A stretch of 22,986 nt of DNA from a virus. The notes under the pieces are model-generated. The model was not told the origin of the DNA. It searched no databases and saw only the letters and a program-made list of their open reading frames with translations. The translations under genes were made by a program, and so were the position numbers. Below are positions 9,141 to 22,986 of the stretch, piece after piece (the stretch's first letter is position 1; every line of letters starts with the position of its first letter). Where the stretch lies: the IMG/VR virus record IMGVR_UViG_3300031788_000112, positions 1 through 22,986 of that record. One strand, 5' to 3'.

Positions 9141-10490
9141 CTATACGCTTTGCCCTGTGCTCGCTACCGTCGAGCGCCCATCGATCTGAGTGCCGCCCAT
9201 CACTGTCAGAATCTTGAGATCCTGATTCATCGTGAAAAAGTCACCCAACATCGGATCCACGCCGCCGCCCACGCGCTGGGTAGTCGGCACGCGGGAGAAC
9301 GTCTGCGGGGTCTCGTAGCCCTGCAGAAATCCGACTTCGATAGCTGGACGATTCTGGCTGTCCGGGTCTATAGTGATGCCCCAGACCGTGTGCTGCACGC
9401 CAGCCGCAGTGCAGACGATGGGGATATAGGGGTCCATCACCAGGTCCATGTCGTTGATCCAGTTGGCCACCTGGAGCCACTGACTCGGGAATCCGGTGGT
9501 GCCGGCCTGGTTGCCGCCTTCGACCGACAGTGAGATGGTCAGCGCGCGCTTCAGGTTTTGCGCCGTCGCAGTGAGGGCTGGGCCGTACCAGCAGCGCGGC
9601 CGCCCAGTGATCATGATCGGGTTGCCAGACGAATCGCGCATTCCGGCCAGGATCTTCATCCCGTCCATGATCCCTTGCGCCGACAGCGGCGGGTTATTGA
9701 TGCTCGCCCCGTTGGTGATGTTGATCAGATTGCCGTAGCCCGAGGTGTACAAGCTCGCGTGAGGGCCGGCGGCATCGACGTATAGACTGGTGATGAATTT
9801 GTTGATGCCCTGGTTGCCCGAGATGGCCAGTCGTTGCGCAAGGTCCTGGAAGATGCCCAAGTCATCGTCGACGATGGCCGACCAATTGACGCTCGTCATC
9901 GCCTGGTACAGCAACGGCGAGTACGTCACTGCGGCGGTACTAGTGGATGGCGTCGGCGGGCTGACTCCATTCTGCGGCGTCGGCCCCAACAGCGAGCGGT
10001 TCGGGATCTGTGCGCCCGGGTCGCTGGATGTCAACGGGCTGACCACACCGTCCATCATGTACCGTTTGACGGCGCGGAAATCGCGCAACGTCTTGATTTT
10101 GACCAGCGATTTGTTGGGGATCGGATAGCTGTTGTACCAGCCATAATACAGGCGGTCCAACACATCCACATAGAGCGCCTGGTAGTCGGTGACTGCCATC
10201 GTCTCACGTAATCCCAGCATCCTGCCGCCCGGATCGCCATAGAGGCCCGGATACTTCTCCATCAGGTGGCCGATGAAGAGGTCCGTCCGGGGATTCATGG
10301 CCTCCTGGAGCATCATCGGATGCTCGCGCCCGCGAAGCACGTCGGCGTACAGCCGAGCCGCCTCTCGAATGCGCCGTTCCTGCACCGCGCTCGCATTGCG
10401 CCGCGCCGCCGAGAATCCGTCAAGTGAGGAGTGCTGCGCCGTCCAGTTGTCCAGCGTGGCCGCTTGAGCAAAGTTTGTGATTTCGGGCAT
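9141..10490 (-). CDS. Major capsid protein (HK97-type fold)
   Basis: A 449-residue protein placed after protease/scaffold and decoration protein, as in phages with HK97-fold capsids. It has a helical N-terminal arm (residues 1-110), a middle region with DRLYYGWYNSYPIPN and TLRDFRAVKRYMMDG, a segment typical of capsid proteins in which the protein loops back (DDDLGIFQDLAQRLAISG, about 215-235), and a C-terminal domain ending in VGFLQGYETPQTF and GDFFTMNQDLKILTVMGG. The gene is followed by a hairpin terminator. There is GAGG 11 bases before ATG. No protease cleavage site can be fixed by eye, but the long N-terminal arm suggests a removable delta-type region unless the separate scaffold replaces it. 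Confidence 0.9.
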   Translation of the reverse strand: MPEITNFAQAATLDNWTAQHSSLDGFSAARRNASAVQERRIREAARLYADVLRGREHPMMLQEAMNPRTDLFIGHLMEKYPGLYGDPGGRMLGLRETMAVTDYQALYVDVLDRLYYGWYNSYPIPNKSLVKIKTLRDFRAVKRYMMDGVVSPLTSSDPGAQIPNRSLLGPTPQNGVSPPTPSTSTAAVTYSPLLYQAMTSVNWSAIVDDDLGIFQDLAQRLAISGNQGINKFITSLYVDAAGPHASLYTSGYGNLINITNGASINNPPLSAQGIMDGMKILAGMRDSSGNPIMITGRPRCWYGPALTATAQNLKRALTISLSVEGGNQAGTTGFPSQWLQVANWINDMDLVMDPYIPIVCTAAGVQHTVWGITIDPDSQNRPAIEVGFLQGYETPQTFSRVPTTQRVGGGVDPMLGDFFTMNQDLKILTVMGGTQIDGRSTVASTGQSV

Positions 10491-10494
10491 GGCG

Positions 10495-10890
10495 TTAGAT
10501 CCTCACCGGCGCTGACGTCACCGTCAGGCCGCTTCCCACGCCCGCCGAGTAGCTCGGGTCGAGCGTTCCGAATGCCGTATCGCCACTGGTCGCTGAGATC
10601 AGCAGACCGGTGGTCACGTTGGTGGTGTTGTCCAGCACGCCGCTCGCGTAGAGCAATGCCCCTGGAGCAATGGCCGCACCCGTGTACGGGCTGTGGCTCG
10701 TGGTGCCAACGACGGTGGTGTAAAACGTGCCGTTGGTATAAAACGTTGCGCCGCCGGTGTTGCTCTGATAATCGTTCAGAGCGAACGCCGGAATCTTGCC
10801 GAGCAAGACCGCGTCGCCGGCCTTGACCGTGCTAGGGCACAGTGCGAATCGCGGGCTGCTCGGTGTGCCCTGGAATGCCTGATTCTTCAT
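10495..10890 (-). CDS. DUF2190-like capsid decoration protein
   Basis: A 131-residue beta-rich protein with the DUF2190 pattern: an early AGDAVLLGKIPAFALNDYQS, then short strands separated by Gly/Thr turns (YTTVVGTTSHSPYTGAAI, APGALLYASGVLD) and a C-terminal strand SGLTVTSAPVRI. Related proteins form trimers that sit on the capsid surface as cement proteins. It overlaps the protease gene by 4 bases and lies 4 bases before the capsid gene, the usual order for this family. Confidence 0.85.
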   Translation of the reverse strand: MKNQAFQGTPSSPRFALCPSTVKAGDAVLLGKIPAFALNDYQSNTGGATFYTNGTFYTTVVGTTSHSPYTGAAIAPGALLYASGVLDNTTNVTTGLLISATSGDTAFGTLDPSYSAGVGSGLTVTSAPVRI

Positions 10891-11309
10891 GCCACCCTCC
10901 CGGCGAGCGCCAGCTTGGCCGCTTCCTTGTTGCCACCCATCAGCGATTCGAAGACCTTCAGGTCTTCTTCATCGCGCCGTTTGTTTTGGGCCTCGCGCCG
11001 CTCGGCTTCCCGCGCGTCGATCTCGACGGCTCCCGCGCTGGCGCCCATGCCGTACACGCGGGACGGCGCGACGGCCGCGAGATACTGCCCTTCGGCTTTG
11101 GCGGCGGCGTTGACGGACTCGGTAAGCCGCACCGCGTCCACCTCGCCATCTTTCGTGGGGACCTGGACCAGGACGGTCTCAATCACCCGCTGCTTTGCGG
11201 CCTCCGGTAGCGTGACTCCTGCGAGGATGCGCGTAGCTGCCTCCCGCGCATCTCCGCGGATCGCCCGCTCCATCAGCCGTGTGACCTGCTGCTGCTCGGC
11301 TGCGGTCAT
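10887..11309 (-). CDS. Internal in-frame start giving free scaffold protein
   Basis: Within the protease gene an in-frame ATG at 11309 is preceded by a perfect AAGGAGG (11326-11320), 10 bases away. The product would be 140 residues, the charged helical scaffold domain without the protease. Lambda does the same with Nu3 inside C. The Met begins MTAAEQQQVTRLMERAI just after a linker (AAGAAKPNQGG), so the start falls exactly at the domain border. Confidence 0.65.
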   Translation of the reverse strand: MTAAEQQQVTRLMERAIRGDAREAATRILAGVTLPEAAKQRVIETVLVQVPTKDGEVDAVRLTESVNAAAKAEGQYLAAVAPSRVYGMGASAGAVEIDAREAERREAQNKRRDEEDLKVFESLMGGNKEAAKLALAGRVA

Positions 11310-12575
11310 AGTTTCCGCGCCTCCTTGGTTTGGTTTGGCGGCGCCCGCCGCCTCGGTCAAAATCATTCCGCCTGCGCCGGCCCGTGTCACTACGTCTACG
11401 GACTCCGCGCCGGTCAGCTCTTTGAGCACTGGCTTGCCGTCACGCGTCTTGCCTGACTCGGCAATGCCAGATGCCCGGATACTCATGCCCACGTACGGCG
11501 CCTTCTCCTCGACCATCTGCGCGTGGTCTGCAAAGACTTTCATCCGCGCGTAGAGGCCCGGCCCCTTCGGTGCCCCCTCCTGATACTCAGCGGTCGAGGT
11601 AAGCACGCCCGCCAGGTTGCGCACGTCCCCTTCCGGCCGCGCGGCCTCTTCGGCCTGTGTGGCGTGATTGAGATAGACATGCGTGCCGGCGCGGAAGACC
11701 TTCGGTCCATCGCGCTCCAGCACCTCCTGCGGGTAGTAGGCCGATGCGCCCGCGCCAGGTGCGATGAGCTTGATCAGATAGTCGGCGCGCGCCTCCTGGA
11801 TGCGGATCGCCTCGACAGTGGCGGCGGATTCGATCAGACGGAGACCGTCGGTCTCTCGCGTTCCAGCGCCCGCGCCCTCCTTTGCATCGCTTCCGCCGCC
11901 CTGCCAAGCCTGTGGGAGATACTTCGTCCAGCCCTTTTTCTTGGCGATGCGGATGATGTTGGCCTTAAGTGCCGCAGGTCCGTAGTTGCCGGTTCCCGCG
12001 CGCCCCATCGAATGCACCGCCGCCATGATATCGCCGGGTTTGTTGATTGGAAAACTTTTGCCCTTGCCTGCGAAGTCTCCCTCATCCATGGTGTCGCGCT
12101 CTGCCTTGCTCACGAACCGCTCTACCAGTGGCAGCCCGCCGCGCGTGTACAGCGCGGCCTCGTACATGTTGGCCATGCCGTCGTCGTCCTCGTCGTCCGG
12201 CATGTCCTCGTAGGTCACCCGCGGCGAGACCTTCTTGGCCGAGTCGAGGTCGAGCTTGGCGGTGGCTGCCACGCCATCTCCGCTGCCCGTAATCTCATAC
12301 GGGCAACTCATCGTGTCGCCTGAGCAGGAGTAGATGACGTCCCCCGAGTCGTCGTCGCCGACATGGTCCAAGTACGACGCCCATTTGCCGGTGCCCTTGT
12401 GCGCGTCCGAGACCGCGGCCTGGAGCTTTTGGCCCACGCTGGATGCGGTCAGGCCGCTGGCCGCCTCCTGGATCTGGAGCGCCAGCGCAACGTAGCCGGC
12501 TTTGAGCTTGGCAACCGGCGCGGGCTGAACGACTGCATGCTGCTGTGCTTCGCGCGCCTCAACGAGTAGCGGCAT
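10887..12575 (-). CDS. Capsid maturation protease fused to scaffold
   Basis: A 562-residue protein. Residues about 75-140 are acidic. Residues about 172-218 (FPINKPGDIMAAVHSMGRAG, ALKANIIRIAKKKGW) match the pattern of DUF6582. Residues about 265-410 form an S78-like prohead protease: LNHAT with H304, LYARMKVFADHAQM, GMSIRASG with S365, and ELTGAESVDVVTRAGAGG. Residues about 423-562 are charged helices, a scaffold domain that contains its own start codon. Protease and scaffold together guide prohead assembly, then self-digest. The start abuts the stop of the ferritin-like gene (TAA-ATG). Fusion of protease and scaffold is common, whereas the DUF6582-like insert is less so. Confidence 0.88.
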   Translation of the reverse strand: MPLLVEAREAQQHAVVQPAPVAKLKAGYVALALQIQEAASGLTASSVGQKLQAAVSDAHKGTGKWASYLDHVGDDDSGDVIYSCSGDTMSCPYEITGSGDGVAATAKLDLDSAKKVSPRVTYEDMPDDEDDDGMANMYEAALYTRGGLPLVERFVSKAERDTMDEGDFAGKGKSFPINKPGDIMAAVHSMGRAGTGNYGPAALKANIIRIAKKKGWTKYLPQAWQGGGSDAKEGAGAGTRETDGLRLIESAATVEAIRIQEARADYLIKLIAPGAGASAYYPQEVLERDGPKVFRAGTHVYLNHATQAEEAARPEGDVRNLAGVLTSTAEYQEGAPKGPGLYARMKVFADHAQMVEEKAPYVGMSIRASGIAESGKTRDGKPVLKELTGAESVDVVTRAGAGGMILTEAAGAAKPNQGGAETMTAAEQQQVTRLMERAIRGDAREAATRILAGVTLPEAAKQRVIETVLVQVPTKDGEVDAVRLTESVNAAAKAEGQYLAAVAPSRVYGMGASAGAVEIDAREAERREAQNKRRDEEDLKVFESLMGGNKEAAKLALAGRVA

Positions 12576-13046
12576 TTACACCTCCACCAGGGCGCCGATA
12601 AAGTCGCCCGGCCCAATCCCTGCAATCAGCCGGAGCCACTGCTCCAGCTTGTTGATCTGGTGCTGCACCTCATCGATGGCGTGCTCGTAGAGGTCCGGCA
12701 CATAGTCTGCGCGGATGCTCCACGCCGCCGCGCGGAATCCGCAGAGCGCAGCGAAGGCCCGATTGAGCATCTCCGAGTCGCGCTGGATAAGCGTGCGCAC
12801 ATCCGCCGCCGTGGTAATCGAGCCGATCTGATAGTTTGGATCGGCGCCGAAATTCAGCAGTTGCTTGATGGCGCCGTTTAAATGGCACTCAATTGCCTGG
12901 TGCCAATGCGGATAGAATTTGTGCCCCAGGTCCTTGAGGCCGAGGTTGCGGATCTGGTAGCCATCGACTCGGTATTGTTCTGCGATTGTCGCCAAAATCC
13001 CGCATGTGGTCTGCAAGTCCGCCAGGACTTTCGGATCAGCCTTCAC
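12576..13046 (-). CDS. Bacterioferritin-like protein with lost ferroxidase site
   Basis: A 156-residue protein that aligns almost without gaps with bacterioferritin over its full length (compared with my memory of E. coli Bfr): MKADPKVL at the start, QY 24-25, NLGL 34-37, PN 70-71, DV 82-83, D90, DYV 114-116, LE 134-135, LI 140-141, IG 144-145. Of the six ferroxidase ligands, only H55 (Bfr H54) is kept. The equivalents of E18, E51, E94, E127 and H130 are Leu, Ile, Leu, Val and Gln, and the haem Met is Glu. The fold is therefore likely kept and the iron chemistry lost. GTG 13046 is chosen as start because it gives the family N-terminus and sits 6 bases after a TAnnnT box. It is the first gene of the capsid operon, directly abutting the protease gene. 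Confidence 0.8.
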   Translation of the reverse strand: MKADPKVLADLQTTCGILATIAEQYRVDGYQIRNLGLKDLGHKFYPHWHQAIECHLNGAIKQLLNFGADPNYQIGSITTAADVRTLIQRDSEMLNRAFAALCGFRAAAWSIRADYVPDLYEHAIDEVQHQINKLEQWLRLIAGIGPGDFIGALVEV

Positions 13047-13052
13047 GCCCAA

Positions 13053-13113: not shown

Positions 13114-13404
13114 ATGCCGAAACCGGAAAACGGATCACCCCTCTGCACCAAATGCGGTCTACGCCCGAAGTCGGGGAACTCGGAAGACGCAAATCCATGG
13201 TGTAAAGAGTGCCGCGCGGAATATCATCGCGAATACAAGGTGCGCGAGAATTGGCGCGCGGAGCGCCGGGGAATATTGCGCGGGATCCAGGCGATGCGCG
13301 AGGTGTTGGCTGGCCACTTCCGCAGGTTCCCCTCGGCGGTATTCACCGGCGCGGAGATTGCGCACACGACAGAAACCCTCGCGGGGCCGCCGGTCGCGGA
13401 CTAA
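13114..13404 (+). CDS. Small zinc-ribbon protein
   Basis: A 96-residue protein on the strand opposite to the structural genes. Two Cys pairs, CTKC (11-14) and CKEC (30-33), should bind zinc. They are followed by a basic helix (YHREYKVRENWRAERRGIL). The layout resembles the zinc-binding N-terminus of phage endonuclease VII-like and HNH-type proteins, but no nuclease motif follows, so a small DNA-binding regulator is possible. It is divergent from the capsid operon and converges, 6 bases apart, with the small secreted-protein gene. I do not recognise a specific family. Confidence 0.7.
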   Translation: MPKPENGSPLCTKCGLRPKSGNSEDANPWCKECRAEYHREYKVRENWRAERRGILRGIQAMREVLAGHFRRFPSAVFTGAEIAHTTETLAGPPVAD

Positions 13405-13629: not shown

Positions 13630-13947
13630 TCACACCGCCCTCGCGACGCTGGCCACGTCGCCGCTCTTGATAATCACGTAGACCTGCGACAGGTCGTAGA
13701 CCTCCGGCAACGCGCTACTGACCGGAGCAAACTGCCCGTTGTTTGGCGTGCCAATCGGGATCCCGTTGGCGACCGACACGTTGATGTCGCCCACGCGCGT
13801 GATCCCGCTGGAGCTGAGCATCACGATCTGCCACCATTTGCATGCCCAGTTGTCCTGTACCTGCGCCACGCCGCCGACTTTGAGCAGCGATACGAGCTGA
13901 TGCTTTGCGCCGTCGCCGGTGATGTCGTCAAACGCTGAGATGTGCAT
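13630..13947 (-). CDS. Small protein of unknown function
   Basis: A 105-residue soluble protein: MHISAFDDITGDGAKHQLVS, then VQDNWACKWWQIVML and INVSVANGIPIGTPNNGQFA, ending DLSQVYVIIKSGDVASVARAV. Regular alternation of polar and hydrophobic residues suggests a beta-sandwich, as in phage decoration or fibre-associated proteins, but I do not recognise a family. It has its own promoter with a good -35, a leaderless start, and is followed one base later by the secreted-protein gene, with which it forms a two-gene unit. Confidence 0.7.
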   Translation of the reverse strand: MHISAFDDITGDGAKHQLVSLLKVGGVAQVQDNWACKWWQIVMLSSSGITRVGDINVSVANGIPIGTPNNGQFAPVSSALPEVYDLSQVYVIIKSGDVASVARAV

Positions 13948-14248: not shown

Positions 14249-14407
14249 ATGCTGATACTCTTGATTCTGCTTTTGCTTTTGCTGGGCGGCGGCGGCGGGT
14301 ACTGGGGATATGGTCGATGGGGCGCCGGCGGCGCGCTCGGCATTGTCCTTCTGGTGCTGCTGTTGTGCTGGATGTTTGGATCGATGGGCGGCTACTGGCA
14401 TCGATGA
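14249..14407 (+). CDS. DUF3309-like small membrane protein
   Basis: A 52-residue protein: hydrophobic stretch LILLILLLLLL, a Gly-rich turn with Tyr/Trp (GGGGGYWGYGRWGAGG) and a second hydrophobic stretch (ALGIVLLVLLLCWMF). This is the plan of DUF3309, a family of roughly 50-residue membrane proteins of unknown function found in bacteria. GAGG lies 7 bases before the ATG. The stop overlaps the start of the gp10-like gene by 4 bases, so the two are translated together. Confidence 0.65.
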   Translation: MLILLILLLLLLGGGGGYWGYGRWGAGGALGIVLLVLLLCWMFGSMGGYWHR

Positions 14408-14859
14408 ATATCCGGGCCACCAGCACGTTCCGCGCGGGTGACTTCGCCAGCACTGAATCGCTCATCGTGCCACGCATCAAGGCGGGTGTAGCCGGCGCCT
14501 GCGGCGCGGTGCTCGAAGAGGCATCCTCTCTCGCGCCGAGATCCGAATCGCCGAGCAGCGGCACACTCGCCACCAGCGGCAAAGCCCAGCAGCAATGGAT
14601 CGGCACGCGCGTAGATGGCAGCGTGGCATTCCTCGCGCCCTACTCTGCATTTGTCGAATTTGGGACTGGCATCCGCGGGCAAGGCACGTACCCGTATGCG
14701 CTACCGGTTGAGGGGGTGCCGTACACCGGAGGATGGGTCTATGACTTCAGGCGCCAGAACTGGCAGGGGCACGGAGCGCAGCCGTATCTTCGGCCCGCGC
14801 TCGACACCCGGCACGATGACATCCTGGGCGCATTCCGCGCCCAGGGGTTCCAGATTTAA
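14404..14859 (+). CDS. HK97 gp10-like neck / tail completion protein
   Basis: A 151-residue protein with the hallmark of the HK97 gp10 family: YSAFVEFGTGIRG (80-92) after a helical N-terminal half, and QPYLRPALD (126-134) near the C-terminus. These proteins help join tail to head and usually sit between the head closure and tail terminator genes. Here the gene is on the opposite strand about 6 kb away, behind two tiny membrane protein genes. ATG 14404 is chosen because it overlaps the preceding stop (ATGA) and removes an unlikely basic extension. The stop is one base from the stop of the convergent gene. Confidence 0.85.
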   Translation: MNIRATSTFRAGDFASTESLIVPRIKAGVAGACGAVLEEASSLAPRSESPSSGTLATSGKAQQQWIGTRVDGSVAFLAPYSAFVEFGTGIRGQGTYPYALPVEGVPYTGGWVYDFRRQNWQGHGAQPYLRPALDTRHDDILGAFRAQGFQI

Positions 14860-15126: not shown

Positions 15127-15735
15127 TTAGTCGCCTCCATAGCCCTGTCGGTAATCGACTGAGCAGTCGCAATTTACGTGTCCGGGGGGATCATCGCCGA
15201 TAGGGAAATCATCATCCAGGCCGATCCATCCGGCGTCAATCTGCTCCTGGCACTCGTCGCAGCACTCTGTGCCATCGGCGCTCCAGCGCTTCTCCTCGTA
15301 GCCGAGCTGGTGCGCCATGGCATCCCGGCCGGCCACGTAGGCCTGGTTGACCTCCGTCTGTGCGATCATGCCGGCGCGCACGGAGGAAAACTGCTCGAAG
15401 GTATCCTGCACAGCCTGGACCACCTGGTCGTAGCTGCCGCCGGCCTGCCATGCGTCGGCAATGGCATTCTGGATCTGTTTCACGGACTCGCCGGAGAAGT
15501 TGCCAGTGAGCTTGGACAGACTGTTTTCTCGCAGGTAGCGGCCCGCGAAATCATCAGGGATGACTGCACCGCTCTTGACCTCCGCGGCCAGTACCGTTGC
15601 CGCCGCGGCGATTGCGCCGCCCAGCGCATCCGCGTAATCATCGAATTCGCCTTTCGTCACCGGGAAGCGCAGCGGGCTAACGCTGGATGGCAGGATGGTT
15701 TGCGCCACCTGCTTGGACAGCGGGGAGCGAGCCAT
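15127..15735 (-). CDS. MuF-like minor head protein
   Basis: A 202-residue protein with the C-terminal pattern of the Mu protein F family: AQTEVNQAYVAGR (125-137), W151-x-x-D-G155, a CC-x-x-C group (158-162) and PPGHVNCDCS (183-192), where the Cys and His residues are conserved in the family. A few copies are built in next to the portal and may enter the host cell with DNA. ATG 15735 shares TGATG with the preceding stop; GTG 15744 is an alternative. It is shorter than full MuF proteins; the preceding gene may supply the missing N-terminal part. Confidence 0.88.
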   Translation of the reverse strand: MARSPLSKQVAQTILPSSVSPLRFPVTKGEFDDYADALGGAIAAAATVLAAEVKSGAVIPDDFAGRYLRENSLSKLTGNFSGESVKQIQNAIADAWQAGGSYDQVVQAVQDTFEQFSSVRAGMIAQTEVNQAYVAGRDAMAHQLGYEEKRWSADGTECCDECQEQIDAGWIGLDDDFPIGDDPPGHVNCDCSVDYRQGYGGD

Positions 15736-16232
15736 CAGTTGCACCCGTTGGTAATAACGATGATTTCCTGACCCTCGACTTCATCGGTGCGAAGGTCAAA
15801 CGGCGAGTTGTCGGGAGTGCGGTTCATTCCTAGACCATCCGCCAATACCTGCTCGCTGCGATCGGCAATGCGCTGCGCCTCTTTTTTGGTCAGCACCTTG
15901 CTTTCCTTCGCGCGCTCAACACGATCACTCTTCGCTGCCGCGCCGCCGCCCAGTAATACTGGATGCCCGTGAATCGTCACCCACTCGCCACCGCCGCTAT
16001 CGGCCTCATGCACAGGCATCGCAGGCGGTGGATGTTGCGCCAGGATAGCAGCCAGACGTGGCTTGATCTCTGCCAGCACTGCCGCCTCCTGCCGCGCCCA
16101 GTAGTGCCGCAAGACTTTCTCGACATCGGCGCGCGCTGGTCCGATGTGCCGAGCATGACTCTTGTGCCTCAGGCCGCCGGCCTCCAGGAGACGCGCTGCC
16201 TCGTCTGCCAGGTCTGCGATATCAATGCCCAT
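15735..16232 (-). CDS. Portal-adjacent minor structural protein
   Basis: A 165-residue protein beginning MGIDIADLADEAARLLEAGG, with AGAGG 6 bases upstream and the start inside the end of the portal gene. Residues about 1-70 are helical, 84-96 hold the motif WVTIHGHPVLLGG, and 119-147 hold ADRSEQVLADGLG and PDNSPFDL. The last two recall the N-terminal part of a domain, found at the end of some phage minor head proteins, that continues into an ELKT-type nuclease-like motif. That continuation is absent here. A longer upstream extension of the same frame is rejected because it overlaps portal coding and is purely Arg-rich shadow. Role inferred from position only. Confidence 0.7.
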   Translation of the reverse strand: MGIDIADLADEAARLLEAGGLRHKSHARHIGPARADVEKVLRHYWARQEAAVLAEIKPRLAAILAQHPPPAMPVHEADSGGGEWVTIHGHPVLLGGGAAAKSDRVERAKESKVLTKKEAQRIADRSEQVLADGLGMNRTPDNSPFDLRTDEVEGQEIIVITNGCN

Positions 16233-18159
16233 CGAGTGCCTCTGCGAGCCGCCGTAGGCTCTGTGCTGCCTCTTTCGTCGAGGCGTCCGTCGGCGCGCTG
16301 GTGTCCTGTTGCACTGCCAGCGGCGATGGCTGGCCGCCAGGCTGCGCGGTAACGACCTGGTTTGGCTTCGGTTGCGTGCCGCCGGGTTGCGGCTGCATCT
16401 TCGGCACGGGGGGCGGGATCTCCTCCTTCGTGCGATCCGGGTCGTACTCCTTGTCCGGGTACTGGGCCTCGGCGAGCTCGTCACCGCCCTCGATATCGAG
16501 CAGCCGGTACAGGATCTTCATGCCCTCTTTTTCGTCGATGCCCGTAACTTGGCCGCCTTTGTTGCCGAGCGTCATCGCTTCGACCGTGGCGCCCACCATC
16601 GCCGGCACGTCGCCCTCGCGGATCGCCGGGAAGACCACGCGCACCTCAATGTCATCGTCCATCTGTTTGCGATTGGCCTCATACGTACGCCGCCCTGATG
16701 GTGCGCGCCGATACGCCGCCTCGCAGATGCGGATCGCTCCAGGATTGGGGCACGCCTCCCGCAGTCGGCCGCCGGGCGCCCGCAGGCTCACGCTGAGCAC
16801 GTAGGTGGCAATGACAGTCAGATCCTCCACCCACTCTTCTTGCAGCGCCAGCATCACCGTTTCGGTGGGCCGGTCTAGGCTCGTGGCTGTGGCCAGATTG
16901 CCTGTGGAGACGTCGCCGAGGAACGTCTCAGGCACGCCCTTGACCATGCAGCACATCAGCAGATAGCGACGCACGTCCTCCGGTGAGAATGTCGCGCCCT
17001 GGATTTTGAAGGCCTCCAACTTCGTCCCCGGCCCGCTCCCAAAGATACTCCCCGCGATTGCCGGCGGATTGACGTCCCACATTTGATTCGGCGGTCCCAC
17101 TGTCGTCTGGAGCTGCTGCTTTTGTGCTTCGAGCGCTTGCTGACCGCCTTTGCTGGTCAGCGTCATCGCGATCTGACTGAGGCTCTGGCGCACGCTGGCG
17201 CAGGCCTCCAGGAAGCGGCGCCCTTCCTTCGCCCAGCCGAGCATCGGATAGATGCGCGGGCAGCCAAAGAGCCATTTGCCGACCGCTCCAACCTTGCGGT
17301 GGTAGATAGGCGTGGCCCACATCACCGGCTTGCCGCCGATGGTGGGCTGTTGGACATCGGGATCATAGTTAAGCGCCGGATACCAGCAGTCCTGATACTC
17401 CGTCGTCTGTTGGCCGCTCACCACGTCCCACGATTTCGCGGACCACTGCCGGCGGTAGAACCATGGCTGGTCACTGTCCTCCGGATCCGTTATGATCTCC
17501 TGGATTTCCGTGGCGTCGACAGTGCGAACATCGACAGTGCCTTTGTTGGCAGCGTCCGAGAAAAAAGCGAAGAACAGATTTCCGTCTCGATCTTTGGATT
17601 TTTCCAGCTCGGTCAATGCGGTGTGCCCCAACACATGCCGATTGCGCTCGAAAAACTCCGTCAGCACCTCGTTGGCGTCTTTGTCGGAGGTCGTGACGTC
17701 CACGCCGCGGGCAAATACATACAACGCGCAAACATCCACCAGGCGCCGTACGATTGGGTTTTTGAGGTAGTAGAGTCGGCAAATCAGGACGATCGATTGG
17801 AGGCCCCAACGCGAGAACTCTAAAAACGAATAGTTGATTTCCCTCTTCCATTCCACGTTTTGGAGCATCAAATCGTACTCGCCGAAGGCGCCGATACTGG
17901 ACGCCGGGCCCGCCTCGCGGAGTCGTCCGACCTTGACTGGAGCATTGGCGTCAGAGCGTAGCCACGGCCCAGGACCGCACATCTCGCGCGCCTCGATCAG
18001 CTCAGAGAGCCGCTCGCGCGCCTGCCCTATGTCGTATGCCAACTTCTCCTGCGCGCTCGCCAAAGCGCTGGAAAGGGCATCTACTCTTGGCTGTAGATCA
18101 GGTTTCGGGCGCAGCCACATGAGCGCCCGGTAAAGCCATGTCTGGATTCGTCGCCGCAT
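16222..18159 (-). CDS. Portal protein
   Basis: A 645-residue protein heading the structural genes. After a helical N-terminus (residues 25-60) come a core with VEWKREINYSFLEFSRWG and YYLKNPIVRRLVDVCALYVFARG, a segment LTELEKSKDRDGNLFFAFFS, and the hallmark VKGVPETFLGDVSTGNLATA before the long helix of portals (TVMLALQEEWVEDLTVIATYVLS). The C-terminal 90 residues are Pro/Gln/Lys-rich and probably disordered. Twelve copies form the DNA channel at one vertex and seat the terminase motor. The start sits 6 bases after an extended -10 box. No terminase gene lies beside it, which is unusual. Confidence 0.92.
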   Translation of the reverse strand: MRRRIQTWLYRALMWLRPKPDLQPRVDALSSALASAQEKLAYDIGQARERLSELIEAREMCGPGPWLRSDANAPVKVGRLREAGPASSIGAFGEYDLMLQNVEWKREINYSFLEFSRWGLQSIVLICRLYYLKNPIVRRLVDVCALYVFARGVDVTTSDKDANEVLTEFFERNRHVLGHTALTELEKSKDRDGNLFFAFFSDAANKGTVDVRTVDATEIQEIITDPEDSDQPWFYRRQWSAKSWDVVSGQQTTEYQDCWYPALNYDPDVQQPTIGGKPVMWATPIYHRKVGAVGKWLFGCPRIYPMLGWAKEGRRFLEACASVRQSLSQIAMTLTSKGGQQALEAQKQQLQTTVGPPNQMWDVNPPAIAGSIFGSGPGTKLEAFKIQGATFSPEDVRRYLLMCCMVKGVPETFLGDVSTGNLATATSLDRPTETVMLALQEEWVEDLTVIATYVLSVSLRAPGGRLREACPNPGAIRICEAAYRRAPSGRRTYEANRKQMDDDIEVRVVFPAIREGDVPAMVGATVEAMTLGNKGGQVTGIDEKEGMKILYRLLDIEGGDELAEAQYPDKEYDPDRTKEEIPPPVPKMQPQPGGTQPKPNQVVTAQPGGQPSPLAVQQDTSAPTDASTKEAAQSLRRLAEALDGH

Positions 18160-21945: not shown

Positions 21946-22986
21946 TTAACTGTGAGTTTGATCTACCTTGCGCACCAAAGACTTCAACATAACATCCCCC
22001 TGCCGCTTGTATGCGCCAGAGCGGTATTGCTTCTCCGTCATCCCGAAAGACGCGGCCACCCCCTCATAACAACGCTGGGTGTCGTGTGCCACCCGGAGAG
22101 TGTACCGGCGCCCTGTTGATGGATCGGTGAGGCGAACCAGGCGGATTGGGCGCCCCTCGAAGTCGGTCTGCTGGGTACACTCCAGCAGTTCCGCTGTCTC
22201 CTCGCCCGCGCGATATGATATTACCAGCCGCTGCGACGGCTCGATAAGATCACTCACAGGGATAGTCGGAAATTGCGACTCCAGTGCGTCGGCATGGATT
22301 ACTCGGACGCCAGCCTGCTCTGCGTAGCGGTCCCAACCCATGCGCTCCACCATCACACGCCGCACCTCCACGTCGTTTTCCGCGTGGACGTCCGCGGCGC
22401 ATAACGTTTCCGGCCGCATGATAATTTGCTCCGTCACTGCTACACCGTGCCAGTACCACAGGGACCAACCATCACGCCAGCGATGCGACGGCCCATTATC
22501 GCAATGTGGGCGATTTCCCGCGTCCACTTGGATCACCTCCGGAAAGTCGGATACCATGCAAAATTCGGGGTGCATGATTCGAAATCCGCCGTGGATCGCG
22601 ACTTGCTCCCAGGATCTGTATGCCGCGTGCGATGGCAGTCGCAGCCCCAGTACGTCCCGCCCGGCGGTCAAGTAAGAGTCCCAGGCTGACCACATATTAC
22701 CGCCCTGATACATACGCTGCCATCTCCGCGCACAGGCGAGCAAAAAAATAGCCTGGCGGGTCGCCTGGAGGGTCGCCAGGTCGGTCGCCTGGTCGGTCGC
22801 CTGGCGGGTCGCCTGGCGGGTCGCCTGGTAGGTCGCCAGGTCGGTCGCATGGTAGGTCGCATAGAGGGTCGCCTCGGCGGTCGCCAGGCGGGTCGCCAGG
22901 TCGGTCGCCATGTAGGTCGCCTGCTCGGTCGCCTGGCTGGTCGCCTGCTCGGTCGCCTGACGGGTCGCCTGGTAGGTCGCCTCGGC
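21946..22986 (-). CDS. DUF6745-like protein with AT-x-x repeats (5' end outside window)
   Basis: The frame is open to the right edge, so the start is not seen; ATG 22911 lies inside the repeat and is probably not the start. The first 80 visible residues are 19 tandem Ala-Thr-x-x units. After a hydrophobic AIFLLACARR come the DUF6745 features: MVSDFPEVIQVD, a DG-x-x-L-W-Y-WHGVAV segment, ENDVEVRRVMVERMGWDRY, and the C-terminal AASFGMTEKQY with QGDVM. DUF6745 proteins occur in bacteria and some phages, often with degenerate short repeats in front; no biochemical role is known to me. It heads the accessory cluster within this window. Confidence 0.78.
   Translation of the reverse strand, partial: AEATYQATRQATEQATSQATEQATYMATDLATRLATAEATLYATYHATDLATYQATRQATRQATDQATDLATLQATRQAIFLLACARRWQRMYQGGNMWSAWDSYLTAGRDVLGLRLPSHAAYRSWEQVAIHGGFRIMHPEFCMVSDFPEVIQVDAGNRPHCDNGPSHRWRDGWSLWYWHGVAVTEQIIMRPETLCAADVHAENDVEVRRVMVERMGWDRYAEQAGVRVIHADALESQFPTIPVSDLIEPSQRLVISYRAGEETAELLECTQQTDFEGRPIRLVRLTDPSTGRRYTLRVAHDTQRCYEGVAASFGMTEKQYRSGAYKRQGDVMLKSLVRKVDQTHS
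22751..22986. repeat. 12-bp tandem repeat encoding Ala-Thr-x-x
   Basis: About 20 units of 12 bases, continuing past the window edge. On the coding (minus) strand six bases, GCGACC, are nearly invariant and six vary (codons for Asp-Leu, Arg-Gln, Tyr-Gln, Glu-Gln and others). It is part of the DUF6745-like coding frame. Length 12 keeps the frame when units are gained or lost. Confidence 0.92.

Follow-up and report, generated by a model that had tools for sequence, protein, structure and literature searches.

The window, by which we mean the whole stretch of 22,986 nucleotides analysed here, encodes immediately before its head maturation protease gene a divergent relative of bacterioferritin (Bfr) that has lost the haem Met and all ferroxidase ligands but one. 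We tentatively propose, with a probability of about 40%, that this predicted chemistry-free bacterioferritin is an optional protein-protein module, which acts with the protease/scaffold in head assembly. Few protein cages are as well studied as the ferritins and, in bacteria, encapsulins are HK97-type shells tied to ferritin-like cargo. If true, our proposal would mean that nature has retained a cage fold purely for its structure, beside a phage head protease, and has drawn a ferritin fold into the making of virus heads. It would also offer a small testable system, with one gene that is cleanly present or absent in close relatives and with the first 240 residues of the protease as its candidate partner. 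The analysis covers three phage sequences, from uncultured tailed phages, and the counts of relatives given below are based on IMG/VR fragments. The features of the head region in the window are as follows.

9141..10490, minus strand: major capsid protein (Pfam Phage_capsid_4, E 4e-14)
10495..10890, minus strand: cement/decoration-like protein (Pfam Phage_cement_2, E 0.005, below cut-off)
10887..12575, minus strand: head maturation protease / probable scaffold, 562 aa (phrog_15531, E 1e-30)
12576..13046, minus strand: pseudo-bacterioferritin gene, GTG start at 13046, TAA stop, 156 aa
13047..13113, no strand: divergent intergenic region of 67 bp, between the pseudo-bacterioferritin and zinc-ribbon-like genes
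13114..13404, plus strand: zinc-ribbon-like gene (CxxC...CxxC, 96 aa), from blastp against related loci
13630-13947, minus strand: small conserved gene, between the MuF and pseudo-bacterioferritin genes
14317-14859, plus strand: Neck1/tail-completion-like gene (phrog_5, E 4e-10)
15127..15744, minus strand: MuF-like head morphogenesis protein (phrog_2468 / phrog_2662)
16222..18159, minus strand: portal protein (phrog_10963, E 1e-52)

IMG/VR contains two intact orthologues of the pseudo-bacterioferritin gene, L004:5688-6164 (66% identity) and L006:7531-8001 (63%), as well as a truncated near-copy of the window gene; further IMG/VR scans for more orthologues gave none new. The start codon, GTG at 13046 (MKADPKV...), is common to both orthologues, so that the coordinates given in the initial annotation, 12576-13046, match exactly the start used by all of them. 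A mechanical ORF call on the minus strand (12576-13052) begins at a TTG at 13052, which is not conserved in the orthologues. As first described, the gene abuts the protease/scaffold gene, its TAA running straight into the protease ATG; the two genes overlap in L006 (TGATG) and are separated by a 7 bp gap in L004. The order on the minus strand is portal, MuF, small conserved gene, pseudo-bacterioferritin, protease/scaffold, cement-like protein and major capsid protein. The gene is therefore first in the block formed by the protease, cement and major capsid genes, but not, as had been suggested, in the head region, where portal and MuF lie upstream on the same strand. The Neck1-like gene opposes this minus-strand region, and its homologues in L004, L005, L006, L010 and L012 are likewise inverted relative to the protease. 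Scanning for promoters and terminators yielded nothing exceeding chance.

Several other features of the region were observed. The MuF gene is split between frames -1 and -2 in the window (15127-16226, minus strand), whereas L005 and L006 encode it in a single ORF of ~311 aa; the split may reflect a frameshift, a sequencing error or a real division of the gene. An N-terminal histidine phosphatase domain (His_Phos_1) is found in MuF of L007:646-2049 (E 1.6e-13) and L011:5212-6492 (E 5.6e-9), is also visible by eye in L009, L018, L023 and L026, and is absent from L004, L005 and L006. Elsewhere in the window, positions 21946-22911 (minus strand) encode a DUF6745 protein (Pfam E 3e-21), the N-terminal end of which is a low-complexity run with ATxLATxQATRQAT-type repeats.

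Sequence searches point to bacterioferritin. The window protein on its own matches TIGR00754 with an E value of 4.3e-5 (9.3e-6 with the GTG start), and nearly all its phmmer matches in the PDB are bacterioferritins, the best at 6e-4. A profile built from the three phage sequences matches the PDB at E 2.2e-6, with residues 1-150 running collinearly onto residues 1-150, and its best matches are all Bfr/Ftn, a significant match to proteins of the ferritin fold. The window protein scores below both the TIGR00754 equivalog cut-off (25.7 versus 125.55 bits) and the Pfam Ferritin (PF00210) gathering score (16.8 versus 24.5 bits, E 0.007). On these scores, bacterioferritin homology exceeds chance and the protein is a divergent bacterioferritin relative, a member by neither curated cut-off. 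The initial annotation described a likeness almost residue for residue, which is true of the register, collinear over residues 1-150, but not of the identity, since the phage proteins are only 22-28% identical to true Bfrs, with a few one-residue indels. We assembled cellular Bfrs from 22 genomic loci found by the shared MKADPKV pattern; those aligned are 22-28% identical and nearly all have intact ligands. An origin as a host cage protein taken over by the phage is plausible. We dropped the attempt to name a cellular donor lineage because these relatives, picked by the shared MKADPKV pattern, are all ~22-28% identical. No close homologues were found among INPHARED phages, and the Bfr matches in that collection were discarded as they sit in records resembling a bacterial chromosome (e.g. 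'phage Y5').

Structural modelling is consistent with this assignment. AlphaFold2 run with the three phage sequences only predicts the Bfr helix order at a pLDDT of 47, with low-confidence helices at residues 5-34, 38-63, 80-112, 117-143 and 146-155. When 15 Bfr rows were added, the pLDDT rose to 90.7, in a model that depends on the claimed homology itself. With the same dependence, this model displays the four-helix bundle and short helix E of Bfrs, and it aligns to Bfr chains with a TM of about 0.92 in Foldseek and a Z of up to 23.5 over 155 residues. Its match to hetero-Bfr chains is as good as to homo-Bfr.

The predicted active site is dismantled in the same manner in all three phages. Four ligand changes (E18>L, E94>L, E127>V and H130>Q) reported for the window protein are indeed there and are fixed in L004 and L006, and the single ligand His said to remain is H54, kept in all three as H55 (window numbering). 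E51 and the haem Met52 are both replaced under either placement of a one-residue gap before H55. The losses first noted at these two positions therefore stand, although the exact residues (Ile for E51, Glu for the Met) depend on gap placement, MAFFT giving E51>A and M52>I in the window and E51>D in L004. The equivalent of the axial Met52 is E53 or I/L52, according to where the gap is put, and none of the three phages has Met at either position; L006 has M54, one residue beyond. No gap placement before H55 restores the predicted ferroxidase site. Aligned cellular Bfrs (n=15) keep at least 5 of the six ligands. The ligand loss is hence conserved among the phage homologues, all of which directly precede the capsid protease, and a search for phage homologues retaining all ligands, which would have spoken against it, did not refute it. 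A shifted ligand pair, E126-H129 (ExxH-like, in helix D), was considered and rejected, as the orthologues have S or D and H or S at these positions.

Residues of the haem pocket and two-fold interface are also rewired in all three phages (N23>E, F26>R, R30>Y, D56>N and E60>K). In Bfr dimers, R30 forms salt bridges with E60 and D56 (PMC12120770), and these three positions are Y30, N57 and K61 in the phage proteins. In SoBfr1, whose dimer contains no haem, the residues used are D23 and K52 (PMC12120770). Net charge is -2 to -4 in the phage proteins versus -9 to -21 in Bfrs. Positions L68 and E81, which we take to be Bfd contacts after the Pseudomonas BfrB-Bfd complex, are changed as well. Taken together, the ligand, haem, charge and Bfd-contact losses make iron oxidation, haem-mediated release and mineral nucleation by the phage protein all unlikely, as far as function can be read from sequence. 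A conserved run, IRADYVPDLYEH (residues 111-122, near the Bfr three-fold pore), was not retained as evidence for cage assembly, its permutation p being about 0.1.

Despite these losses, the gene is maintained. Among the phage orthologues dN/dS is 0.18-0.20, with changes mostly at third codon positions. These values, together with losses shared by orthologues that are 63-66% identical, show by codon comparison that the gene is kept under purifying selection in the three phages. The original observation, a dead bacterioferritin homologue at 12576-13046, is therefore confirmed overall, and the ORF is real.

The gene is optional. Among 12 resolved spots, it is present in three and absent from nine. 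In the non-carriers L005, L007, L010, L015, L018, L023 and L026, 59-74 bp separate the starts of the protease and of the zinc-ribbon gene, a conserved landmark upstream of the spot in about 12 relatives. In the carriers (the window, L004 and L006) the same starts are 538-553 bp apart, i.e. the gene plus 67-76 bp; in the non-carrier L027 the called starts of the divergent gene and the protease touch. A profile search of 22 records of related viruses, many of them fragments, detected the gene in L004, L006 and the near-copy only, and in none of these records is it found anywhere but before the protease. The gene is thus gained or lost precisely, and it is not shared by all relatives with the same head genes. 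Since most of them lack it, the protein does not count among the essential parts of the capsid or neck. Of the earlier interpretation, a place as a minor capsid, internal or portal-neck component is a conjecture only, while the other elements, i.e. a bacterioferritin-derived, ferroxidase-dead protein whose losses are conserved before the protease, were borne out. The spot is also variable in other ways. L006 has an extra ORF (L006:6249-7100), flanked by the small conserved gene on one side and the zinc-ribbon gene on the other, which makes the region 5' of the protease a variable-gene spot; this ORF has a CxxxCxxC-like motif, SRGCPCRCWFCGVWK, and is radical-SAM-like by eye, with no Pfam match. 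In the non-carrier L021, an HNH-like ORF (563-1009) stands where relatives have the zinc-ribbon gene, leaving about 60 bp.

Phylogenetic comparison ties the gene to one end of the protease. The three carriers group together in the protease tree (96/97), and in the capsid tree the window is apart from L004 and L006, requiring at least two changes. Over protease residues 23-240, the window is 70-80% identical to the other carriers versus 33-60% to full-length non-carriers. Over residues 241-420, L006 and the window are 52-54% identical, below most non-carriers. Sequence on both sides of the gene is common to the carriers. In its inheritance the gene has followed the neighbouring N-terminal region of the protease and not the capsid protein, which could reflect either physical linkage or functional partnership.

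Our preferred reading is as follows. The phage protein would keep the four-helix fold and probably self-associate, as a dimer or a cage, through a rewired, haem-free two-fold interface. It would be made together with the protease/scaffold, as the first gene of that transcription unit, and would have an optional accessory role in head assembly, most probably through contacts with the protease/scaffold and not by handling iron. The candidate contact is the N-terminal ~240 residues of the protease, with which the gene travels. A more specific version, in which the dead bacterioferritin, as a cage or dimer, would sit inside the procapsid and there assist the head protease/scaffold in assembly, is somewhat doubtful.

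The same distribution might be expected of an unrelated moron with some other late function, which found a convenient promoter before the protease and is co-inherited by linkage. A single gene present or absent at a divergent intergenic region of 59-74 bp, in 3/12 resolved spots, is what such an element would leave, and linkage would account for the neighbouring sequence that carriers share on both sides. However, the shared protease region spans ~240 codons, and all carriers keep the gene tight against the protease start, with no other location in any record. We consider this explanation unlikely, albeit one that carries real weight.

It is more improbable that the protein acts on the host, as a dead subunit that enters host bacterioferritin cages and, in the manner of a ferritin L-chain supplied by the phage, changes how iron is stored or released during infection. 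Mixed cages of this type exist naturally, since Magnetospirillum gryphiswaldense builds them with the ferroxidase-deficient subunit Bfr2 (PMC6529640), and co-expressed subunits of different Bfrs can mix (PMC12120770). The modelled fold, which fits hetero-Bfr and homo-Bfr chains equally well, would allow it. Against this, the residues of the two-fold salt bridges, R30, D56 and E60 (PMC12120770), are replaced in all three phages, the presumed Bfd contact positions L68 and E81 are changed, and the gene directly adjoins that of the head protease, whose evolution it follows.

A repurposed metal protein, with a putative new site made of the invariant residues H49, E53 and H55, possibly with E23 and N57, is very improbable. 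The initial annotation pointed to surplus histidines, of which H49 and H55 are invariant and H47 is variable. All five candidate residues are conserved even though the three sequences differ at about 35% of positions. Nevertheless, the Bfr register would put H49, E53 and N57 on the two-fold (haem) side and H55 in the bundle core, giving no obvious single cluster of H49, E53, H55 and N57 among the three sequences available (n=3). Lastly, the idea that the ORF is decaying or wrongly called and resembles a four-helix bundle by coincidence, as scores below the curated Pfam and NCBIfam cut-offs might suggest, is effectively refuted at the sequence level by the full-length collinear match to Bfrs and ferritins (E 2e-6), a MKADPKV start as in many Bfrs, three orthologues at the same place, and a dN/dS of 0.2 versus near 1 for a pseudogene.

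Compared with known systems, the phage protein most resembles Bfr (TIGR00754), for example that of E. coli (1bcf), in overall design. The two are collinear over their full length (156 versus 158 aa) and share MKADPKV, Y25, H54 and a predicted four-helix bundle with a C-terminal helix E region. They differ in that the phage protein lacks the haem Met and the ferroxidase ligands except H54, has a near-neutral charge, has changed two-fold salt-bridge and Bfd-contact residues, and is encoded in a phage head operon. Magnetospirillum Bfr2 has similarly lost ferroxidase residues and is still kept as a functional part (PMC6529640). Unlike the phage protein, Bfr2 keeps haem binding and has an active partner encoded alongside; no partner Bfr subunit gene was found in the records of the window or the other carriers, which are virus records with one match each. 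Ferritin-like folds are encoded by other phages, for example in orf120 of Lactobacillus phage LP65 and in 'DNA binding protein' genes of Streptomyces phages, but these are of the Dps or non-haem ferritin type, and orf120, which is not of the Bfr type, lies outside the head operon. We found no paper that treats ferritin together with a prohead protease, nor one that describes bacterioferritin as a structural protein of phages. A BFVD fold search returned long 'Dps' proteins of uncultured Caudovirales, and ferritin-like matches from the same group that are named 'Prohead protease' (A0A6J7XDU5, A0A6J7WPK9 and A0A6J7WIS1). The latter, known by name only, are 9-15% identical, and they would be one polypeptide, whereas here the two proteins are encoded by neighbouring genes. 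The entry names and fold matches suggest that ferritin-like domains may be joined to head proteases elsewhere. If these entries are true fusions, they would represent an independent tie of ferritin-like domains to head maturation.
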